DNA from: a bacterium
GTDB taxonomy: Bacteria; Krumholzibacteriota; Krumholzibacteriia; LZORAL124-64-63
Length of the DNA stretch: 64,000 nucleotides
Assembly (NCBI GenBank): GCA_020049465.1
Contig: JAIFKS010000014.1
Span: 1-64,000 of the forward strand
Reading direction: 5' to 3'
Part shown: positions 40,797-42,980 of the stretch, piece after piece
Numbering within the stretch: the stretch's first letter is position 1
Layout: each line of letters opens with the position of its first letter
Translations under genes and position numbers: made by a program
Notes under the pieces: generated by a model
Database searches by the model: none
What the model was told of the DNA's origin: nothing
What the model saw: the letters and a program-made list of their open reading frames with translations, nothing else

Positions 40797-40826
40797 ATCA
40801 TATCACACCCGTCGAGTCCGGGTCAA
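40797..40826 (-). promoter_or_regulatory. Promoter placing the exonuclease mRNA start at its ATG
   Basis: TTGACC, 18 bp, TATGAT on the minus strand. The -10 ends six bases before the ATG. The -35 overlaps the stop of the secreted gene upstream. Confidence 0.65.
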
Positions 40827-41644
40827 TCGGCGCGGCCGAGCGCCGGGCGGGCGCCCCGCCCGTGGGCGACGAGTTCCATGATTTCGACCCGTACGCGCGC
40901 CGGTGGCGGCCGCATTCGTCCGCCGGGAGGATCCAGGGTCGAATCGGAGCGGACGCGCTCGGACGCGTAAGCCAGACCCAGGAAAGGCAGATCCGCGTGC
41001 GTGGCGACCGCCAGTTCCCGCGTGGTCACCTGCCGCAGACGCCCGGCCGGGAGCGAGGCCATCTGGGTGTCCGCCGCCGCCATCACGGTCTGGTCGCACA
41101 GGTACTGGACGCCGCCGACCACACGGGTGGTGGACGTTCCCGGCGCCACGGTGGCGGCTGTGAACTCCTCGTTGAACGAATCGGCCAGCAGTGGATCCTG
41201 GCGCAGCTGGTCGGCCGTCATGTCGGCCACGCGTCCGGCGGTCCACTGACGGGCGCCCAGAACGTGGTCCAGCAGGCTGCCCGTACGCGACAGCAGGCGC
41301 CGGGACAGCCGCAACCGCAGTCCCTCGCCCGGAACCGGCGTCAGACGACCGTCCGTTTCTTCGCGCAGCGGGAGGATCTCGACGGCCCAGGCCTGGTCGT
41401 CGGTGCCGCCGCTCCGATCCAGACACGCCACGCGCGTGAGGCTCTGCTCCTGGCGGCCGCCGGACATGACCTCGAACCGGTAGTCCGCCCATTCGCCTTC
41501 GACCATCCGCAGCGGGACCTGCGGCTGTTTCCACAACGTGAAAACGTCGAGGGCGCGGGCCGGCCGCACCCCCGACAGGACGAACAGGAGCGCCGCCGCG
41601 ACGGCGACGCACCTAGTGTTTGATCTTCTCCCAGTAGGTCGCAT
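40823..41644 (-). CDS. Secreted protein, partner of phosphoesterase-cytochrome
   Basis: A 273-residue exported protein with a basic start and hydrophobic core VAVAAALLFVLSGV, cut before or near ALDVF. The mature part is beta-rich with no recognised motif, containing RVACLDRSGG and VQYLCDQTV; two cysteines may pair. The ATG used overlaps the cytochrome gene 3' end by about 30 bases. A longer in-frame ATG at 41674 is possible. Function unknown; position suggests it works with the redox/phosphoesterase protein. Confidence 0.6.
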   Translation of the reverse strand: MRPTGRRSNTRCVAVAAALLFVLSGVRPARALDVFTLWKQPQVPLRMVEGEWADYRFEVMSGGRQEQSLTRVACLDRSGGTDDQAWAVEILPLREETDGRLTPVPGEGLRLRLSRRLLSRTGSLLDHVLGARQWTAGRVADMTADQLRQDPLLADSFNEEFTAATVAPGTSTTRVVGGVQYLCDQTVMAAADTQMASLPAGRLRQVTTRELAVATHADLPFLGLAYASERVRSDSTLDPPGGRMRPPPARVRVEIMELVAHGRGARPALGRAD

Positions 41645-42980
41645 AGTCGAACTCGGGGCTGTTGGCCTGGTCATGGCAGGTCACGCAGGAGTTGCGGGCC
41701 TGCAGGCGCCACTTGCCGTCGCGCGCGTGGGTCGATCCGTAGCCGTGGCACGCTTCGCACTGCACGTTCACCAGGCTGTTGTAGGGCCGCTCGTCGGAAT
41801 AGCCGTTCTTGTACTGGTATCCCGTGGTGTGGCAGACAAGGCAGTCGGGTTCGTTGCTCTGCCCGTCGCTGCGCAGGCTCGTGTAGGCGCGCCGGTGCGC
41901 CGAGGCCGCGTACGACTGCCAGGCGGCCTCATGGCAGGTGAAGCAGGACCGGTCGCCCAGGAACTGCTCCTTTTCCGAACCGTGGATGCGCGGATAGGCC
42001 GACCGCTTCGCTTCCTTGAACGTGACCAGGTCGGTCTTGAACTTCTCCACGCGGGCCTTGACGTCGGCATCCTCGGGCGCCTTGTCGTCGAAGTCGATCA
42101 TGCCGACATCGATGGCCATGACCCGGCCGCTGCCTACTTCGATGAAGAGGTCCGCCCGTCCCTGGAAACGGCCTTCGTACGCGGATCCGAACACCGCGGT
42201 GTCCTTGATCACGCGCTCGGTCTCGATGTTCCGGTACGAATGACCGACCACGCAGATGTCGATGCCCTGGAGTTCCTTCAGCAGCGCCTCGGTGCCCGGC
42301 TCGCCCAGGTGCGCCAGCAGCACGACCGATTCCGCTTCCTGGCGGATCTTCGGCACCAGTTCGCGCAGCGTCGTCAACGGATCGGCAACGGTGAACTGGC
42401 CCTCGCCGCCGGTCAGGGTCAGGATCTGCTGCTGGGGATCCAGCACGCTGACGATGCCGTACTTCACCCCGTTGCGCTCGACGACCTTGTACGGCGGCAG
42501 GATCAATTCACCGGTCTTCGCGTCGCGCACGTTGGCGTTGATGAACGGCAAACCGTGCTGCGTCATCATTTCGCGCAGGAATTCGAGACCGTAGTTCAGG
42601 TCCTGCTCGCCCAGACCGATCGCATCCAGACCGAGTGTGCCGAGCATCTCGCAAAGGAAACGCGTCTGCTCGCGCTCGTTCTGGTTGCGCGGTCCGAAGA
42701 CATCGCCCGCATCCACGTTCAGCAGCGGCTTGTTCTCCTGCCACACCTTGTCCATAAAGGCAGCCCGCCGGGCCAGCCCACCACGCTGGTGAGTCTTTCA
42801 GCCACAGGGCTCGATCTTGCCTTTGATGTCGCTGAGGTAGAGCAAGGTCACGTTCTTCCAGTCACGATGCTCGGCGGAGGCCGGAGCGGGCGCCGCCCGC
42901 GTTCCGGCCGCCAGCGTACCCGCGGTGACCAACAGCAGGCAGACCCACAGAAGTGAGCGCCAACGCTTCTTCAGGATCAT
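41613..42980 (-). CDS. Metallophosphoesterase-tetraheme cytochrome c, probable selenoprotein
   Basis: Read through an in-frame TGA at codon 61, this is one 455-residue protein. A signal peptide (about 1-36) is followed by the 5'-nucleotidase/UshA-type phosphoesterase start (NVTLLYLSDIKGKIEPCG), then the TGA, then the family continuation GGLARRAAF and LLNVDAGDVFG, and DICVVGHSYR. Four CxxCH haem sites (CFTCH, CLVCH, CEACH, CVTCH) form the C-terminus. Relatives carry Cys right after PCG, so the TGA likely encodes selenocysteine. Without readthrough the second part, starting at an ATG lacking a ribosome site, would have no export signal. A nonsense mutation is the alternative. Confidence 0.7.
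42773..42793 (-). promoter_or_regulatory. Candidate bacterial SECIS stem-loop
   Basis: Just after the TGA the mRNA can fold as CUCACCA-GCG-UGGUGGG (7 bp, loop starting with G) or as CCAGC-GUGGUGG-GCUGG. The loop is 11-13 bases from UGA, a little closer than in typical bacterial SECIS elements. Confidence 0.35.

Follow-up and report, generated by a model that had tools for sequence, protein, structure and literature searches.

We analysed a stretch of 64,000 nucleotides (hereafter, the window) from a contig of an uncultured Krumholzibacteriota bacterium, in which a reading frame on the minus strand carries a TGA at codon 61. We refer to this frame as the UGA gene; its features, and those of the gene that overlaps its 3' end, are as follows.

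41613..42980, minus strand: UGA gene, 455 residues plus a TAG stop (41613-41615), for a predicted exported UshA-like (seleno)protein with a C-terminal tetraheme cytochrome
42891..42980, minus strand: signal peptide region, spanning roughly residues 1-30 and identified from MILKKRWRSLLWVCLLLVTAGTLAAGTRAA, with a predicted helix at residues 4-23
42798..42800, minus strand: in-frame TGA at codon 61, interpreted as selenocysteine on the basis of the frame translation and the codons of homologues
42760..42776, minus strand: SECIS-like hairpin, stem CTGGCCC/GGGCTGC, with a 3-nt loop GGC at 42767-42769
42081..42860, minus strand: metallophosphoesterase (5'-nucleotidase/UshA)-like domain, spanning about residues 41-300, its metal and catalytic residues degenerate
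41616..41972, minus strand: tetraheme cytochrome c554-like domain, about residues 337-455
40823..41644, minus strand: downstream secreted-protein gene overlapping the UGA gene, start uncertain (41644 or 41674), about 265 residues

The frame comprises 60 codons before the TGA and 394 after it. Its readthrough translation begins with the signal peptide, continues through YLSDIKGKIEPCG-U61-KTHQRGGLARRA (the stretch around codon 61 reading YLSDIKGKIEPCG-U61-KTHQRGGLARRAAF) and later contains DAGDVFG and four CxxCH motifs at residues 346-350, 380-384, 408-412 and 432-436. An earlier note on this DNA had described the same arrangement, a 60-codon frame bearing a signal peptide, then the TGA, then 394 codons with DAGDVFG and four CxxCH; our translation confirmed it, and the coordinates were correct with the strand, left unstated there, being minus. 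A placement on the plus strand was rejected, there being no such frame on it. A plain ORF caller reports only 42755-41613, the part past the TGA. Standard gene callers split such a gene at the UGA, and the exported selenocysteine (Sec)-containing product is lost.

Homologues were present at 1e-10 in 79 of the 80 genomes covered by a phylum-level search, and the named relatives, at 53-63% identity, are metagenome genomes of Candidatus Krumholzibacteriia/Krumholzibacteriota. We read the codon at the motif directly in 70 homologous loci and found TGA in 64. Our main alignment holds 62 fused homologues (UshA-like part plus cytochrome) from across the phylum, and position 61 is UGA in 60 of them and Cys in the other two; since these are independent genomes, the TGA at codon 61 is neither chance nor a sequencing error. 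Throughout the phylum, the residues encoded before the UGA and those encoded after it are conserved in a single frame. TGT or TGC stands at the aligned position in homologues L078, L084, L085, L102 and L104, with or without the cytochrome, in agreement with the earlier note's claim that the TGA replaces one Cys codon exactly. No relative of the UGA gene product was found among the viral contigs searched, and the plasmids searched yielded ordinary 5'-nucleotidases only, none covering 80% of the query.

Related families (L104, L106, L103, L105 and other loci of G001, G014 and G016) include extra UshA-like paralogues that lack the cytochrome, some with Cys and others with an in-frame UGA (e.g. 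PCSU in L106). Three UshA-like paralogues (G014:C1:289255-290151, G033:C49:7739-8620 and G034:C2:903290-904300) carry a TAA or TAG inside the aligned stretch, and are either pseudogenes or cases where the alignment runs across gene ends.

The region 3' of the UGA is ungapped in all aligned sequences, and RNAalifold pairs alignment columns 38-43 with 47-52 in a hairpin whose 3-nt loop reads GG[A/C] among homologues. In the window gene the outermost pair is mismatched, leaving a 6-pair stem, and the loop lies 28 nt from the UGA. With the outer pair 37-53 counted, 91.3% of cells were paired as compared with 84.3% in shuffles, and 29 cells were altered on both sides of the stem as compared with 11.0 in shuffles (0 of 500 shuffles as high), a test in which the sequences are related and so not independent. 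When the 3' side was slid by 1-3 columns as a control, pairing fell to 32-50%. Folding energy over the whole region downstream of the UGA was not significant in this GC-rich sequence (minimum free energy test, mean z -0.62), and we therefore adopted a pair-specific synonymous recoding test, with codons drawn from each gene's own usage in 2000 replicates. All six inner pairs were intact in 59 of the 64 UGA genes, whereas the recoded replicates averaged 9.1 such genes and never exceeded 19. The codons that form the stem are correspondingly skewed: CGG serves as the first Arg codon in 94% (28% expected), GCC as the Ala codon in 92% (46% expected), and AGG as the second Arg codon in 50% (12% expected). 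The five Cys homologues keep only 4 or 5 of the six pairs. The constraint is thus on this specific stem, and not on overall folding energy.

Published rules for bacterial SECIS elements call for a loop of 3-9 nt with G in its first two positions, a stem of 4-16 bp and a location 16-37 nt after the UGA, with an energy limit of -7.5 kcal/mol (as given in the available text of PMC13188914). The hairpin of the window gene fits these rules in its GGC loop, six pairs and 28-nt spacing, and shows covariation; an extended fold reaches the energy limit, while the bare 17-nt hairpin comes to -7.0 kcal/mol. A search of Rfam returned no family matching it.

We also examined the genome for the machinery of Sec insertion. 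A tRNA-Sec with a UCA anticodon is present, and SelA (449 bits) and SelD (351 bits) both score above their cut-offs. In the selD gene (L019:1528-1530, G000 contig C148) there is an in-frame TGA in SSG-TGA-AAK (GUxxK), the usual Sec site of SelD, and SelD of this genome is accordingly predicted to be a selenoprotein itself. The hairpin that follows that UGA, AGTCC-GGG-GGACT, has a 3-nt GGG loop, of the same type as in the UGA gene. No whole SelB passed the genome profile search, where the best hits were EF-Tu and other translation GTPases; these, LepA among them, and a CysN/CysC-type protein resembling sulfate adenylyltransferase were set aside after their translations were read. A 369-residue C-terminal frame, however, starts at the first base of contig C158, matches SelB-wing_3 above the cut-off and has a SelB-like ending, TRKLGIPMLEHLDQTGVTARDGDLRR. 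Because this frame begins at the contig edge, and because SelB-wing_3 is found in 36 of the 38 relatives searched, the absent N-terminal half is most simply explained by a contig break. The genome thus holds whole selA, selC and selD genes and a fragment of selB, the machinery expected of a genome with a bacterial selenoprotein gene.

The UGA gene is almost certainly a true selenoprotein gene in which the UGA at codon 61 encodes Sec, as the Sec machinery, the UGA shared across the phylum, the Cys homologues and the covarying, synonymously constrained hairpin together suggest. The earlier note had proposed Sec at this residue and listed among its checks a search of the genome for selA, selB, selC and selD, the identity of position 61 in homologues, and a SECIS prediction after the TGA. 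All three came out in its favour, with selB seen as the C-terminal fragment at a contig end, UGA or Cys in 62 of 62 fused homologues, and a hairpin within the published limits on loop, stem and spacing.

The same note had called the product a periplasmic redox phosphoesterase. We inspected the residues of the N-terminal domain. An AlphaFold2 model built on the 62-sequence alignment (pLDDT 90.6) has its best PDB matches in CD73, UshA and other 5'-nucleotidases. Our reference residues were D41, H43, D84, N116, H117, D120, H217, H252 and Q254 of E. coli UshA, with their known roles in that enzyme; by these roles, the positions replaced in our protein are the His and the last ligand of the first metal site and the catalytic His and Asp. 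A phmmer alignment with the Thermus 5'-nucleotidase 2z1a pairs DIK with DTH, GEQDLN with GNHEFD, AHLG with SHLG, and GHSY with GHSH (this protein first in each case). Relative to 2z1a, therefore, the protein has DxK for DxH, E for N, Q for the catalytic His, N for Asp, and Y for the second His of GHxH, so neither the two-metal site of 5'-nucleotidase/UshA (DxH, D, N, H, GHxH/Q) nor the catalytic His-Asp is intact. DxH is retained in three sequences (L045, L047 and L048). Having lost the metal-binding His of DxH together with its catalytic His-Asp pair, the nucleotidase-like domain probably no longer hydrolyses phosphate esters. 'Phosphoesterase' is thus unlikely as a description of the product and is the part of the earlier claim that we drop, the DxH His, the GNHE His and Asp, and the second GHxH His all being replaced; 'redox' is likely, and we keep it as an inference.

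The positions that the family does hold constant lie elsewhere. Residue 61 (U or C), the four CxxCH motifs, H362 and H418 are invariant in all 62 aligned members. Cytochrome_C554 scores above its Pfam cut-off in the UGA gene product, and each of the 62 members has four CxxCH motifs in an exported protein, as expected of a c-type cytochrome. Between 53 and 56 of the 62 retain D51, D93, E125 (in place of Asn), H224 and H247; since these ligands persist in most members, the protein may have a mononuclear metal site and some role in hydrolysis. Ten homologues have in addition lost H224 and/or H247, through three changes on the tree, and retain residue 61 and the hemes.

A Cys at position 59 forms a CGU motif with residue 61 in 48 of the 62 fused sequences. 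The remaining 14 (L081-L083, L087-L091, L094-L098 and L100) have Ala, Ser, Phe or Gly instead (AGU, SGU, FGU or GGU for CGU) and form a clade on one side of a branch with 100/100 support; as the tree is unrooted, we leave the direction of this change unassigned. Cys occupies aligned positions 148 and 258 throughout the clade and aligned position 37 in 13 of the 14, where the sequences displayed show a lipoprotein-type (lipobox-like) signal.

The gene order folC-like, ROK kinase, lptD, HU, UGA gene is phylum-wide where contigs allow it to be followed, and lptD, HU and the UGA gene stand in this order in at least 9 of 12 loci (neighbour names were read from translations, except for HU and a DnaQ-like exonuclease). 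The downstream secreted protein has two invariant Cys, and its gene is conserved beside the UGA gene in the bacterial family of the window; it matched no Pfam or NCBIfam family, and its model (pLDDT 87) gave a weak match to a LolA/LolB-type fold (TM 0.32). At most, this neighbourhood hints at a role in the envelope.

Taking these observations together, we favour an exported, heme-wired oxidoreductase in which Sec sits in a vestigial nucleotidase pocket and exchanges electrons through four c-type hemes, which on the sequence evidence is the probable reading. SelB with Sec-tRNA-Sec would read UGA61 as Sec, aided by the hairpin just downstream, for which the computational results above argue, and the product would be exported. 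By sequence alignment Sec61 would lie in the loop after the first strand, beside the lost metal site. There it may serve as the redox centre, and the four c-hemes bound covalently in the C-terminal domain would most likely pass electrons to or from it; we infer both from what the family conserves. A more specific version, which we put forward tentatively, is a new type of redox enzyme derived from a nucleotidase that is no longer active, where Sec fills the pocket left by the lost metal site and connects directly with c-type hemes for periplasmic or outer-envelope electron exchange. Wired in this way, Sec would need no resolving cysteine, and one clade of 14 lacks the Cys of CGU.

It is less likely that the protein is a Sec-containing metallo-hydrolase. 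In that reading a single metal would be bound at D51, D93, E125, H224 and H247, with Sec61 as one of its ligands or as a nucleophile; the substrate might, for instance, be a thio- or seleno-ester, as in the relative SoxB, and the hemes would carry out a second, separate oxidation step. The UshA/5'-nucleotidase fold, the retention of the core ligands in most members and the SoxB model, which at 1e-20 or better matches 13 of the 62, are consistent with this, whereas the absence of the catalytic His and Asp and of the DxH His, and the ten homologues that dispense with H224 and/or H247 and still keep residue 61 and all hemes, argue against it. We consider it more doubtful still that the protein uses CGU as a redox pair in thiol/disulfide or peroxide repair of envelope proteins, such as LptD, encoded nearby, or the secreted partner with its two Cys. 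The conserved order of lptD, HU and the UGA gene, the secreted partner in the family of the window and the prevalence of CGU would agree with such a role, but gene order by itself is no proof of function, the protein has no thioredoxin fold, and the Cys of CGU is missing from the 14-member clade (one change on the unrooted tree), whose members can therefore do without a CxU pair. If UGA61 were a genuine stop, a short peptide would be exported and a separate start at the ATG at 42755 would yield a cytoplasmic remnant, the split that a plain ORF caller gives. Conservation refutes this for practical purposes: both flanks are conserved in one frame and position 61 is always UGA or Cys, which a stop, an assembly error or a pseudogene does not explain; the hairpin is constrained, and heme attachment requires export.

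We then compared the product with known families. On sequence grounds it is almost certainly a true selenoprotein of the UshA-like (seleno)protein kind, NF041198 (UshA_like_PCGU). Residues 36-280 match positions 16-267 of that model (16-265 in the half-by-half comparison) and the cytochrome part matches 353-519; as both halves match their own part, the fusion belongs to the family as modelled. The motif agrees as well, PCG followed by U or C in the model and PCG-UGA here, with U or C in 62 of 62, although some members here lack the Cys of PCGU. At 273.4 bits, the product falls 1.6 bits short of the curated cut-off of 275. All 62 aligned fused homologues match NF041198, and of nine scanned against the cut-off five fall above and four below, so the cut-off runs through one homologous group. 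A 2026 review lists NF041198 as a selenoprotein family with motif CxU (available text of PMC13188914), and the 2008 Global Ocean Sampling survey describes COG0737 UshA-like CxU selenoproteins with 76 Sec and 92 Cys sequences (available text of PMC2398784). The latter resemble ours in the CxU motif, the UshA-like protein and the Cys homologues, a likeness by description; the available text of PMC2398784 does not mention a cytochrome part. Neither source, in the text available, gives a function for these proteins, and our literature search found no paper on Krumholzibacteriota selenoproteins. Neither the Sec nor the cytochrome fusion is a new discovery: the protein falls in or next to NF041198, already catalogued. 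At its most ordinary, it is one further predicted member; beyond that, the phylum-wide set makes a strong case, by hairpin, Cys homologues and machinery, for a catalogued but uncharacterised family.

Other relatives are more distant. UshA-like (seleno)protein family 2 (NF049981) shares an UshA-like N-terminal domain with Sec, but its motif is CxxU rather than CxU (available text of PMC13188914), and our product scores 35 bits against its cut-off of 140. The SoxB thiosulfohydrolase (TIGR04486) is a relative by sequence, but the score is 72.7 bits against a cut-off of 550, and that family is defined without hemes or Sec. ExtKL (NF040886) is likewise a multiheme c-type cytochrome reported with Sec (available text of PMC13188914), but belongs to a different protein family (10.7 bits against 250). 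Lastly, the predicted N-terminal fold is that of 5'-nucleotidase, UshA and CD73, but the metal and catalytic residues of these enzymes are replaced, their 5'-nucleotidase C-terminal domain is absent, and Sec and four hemes are added. Evolution appears to keep the Sec and the hemes while the hydrolase machinery decays, which narrows the function and makes heme-coupled selenocysteine chemistry testable.
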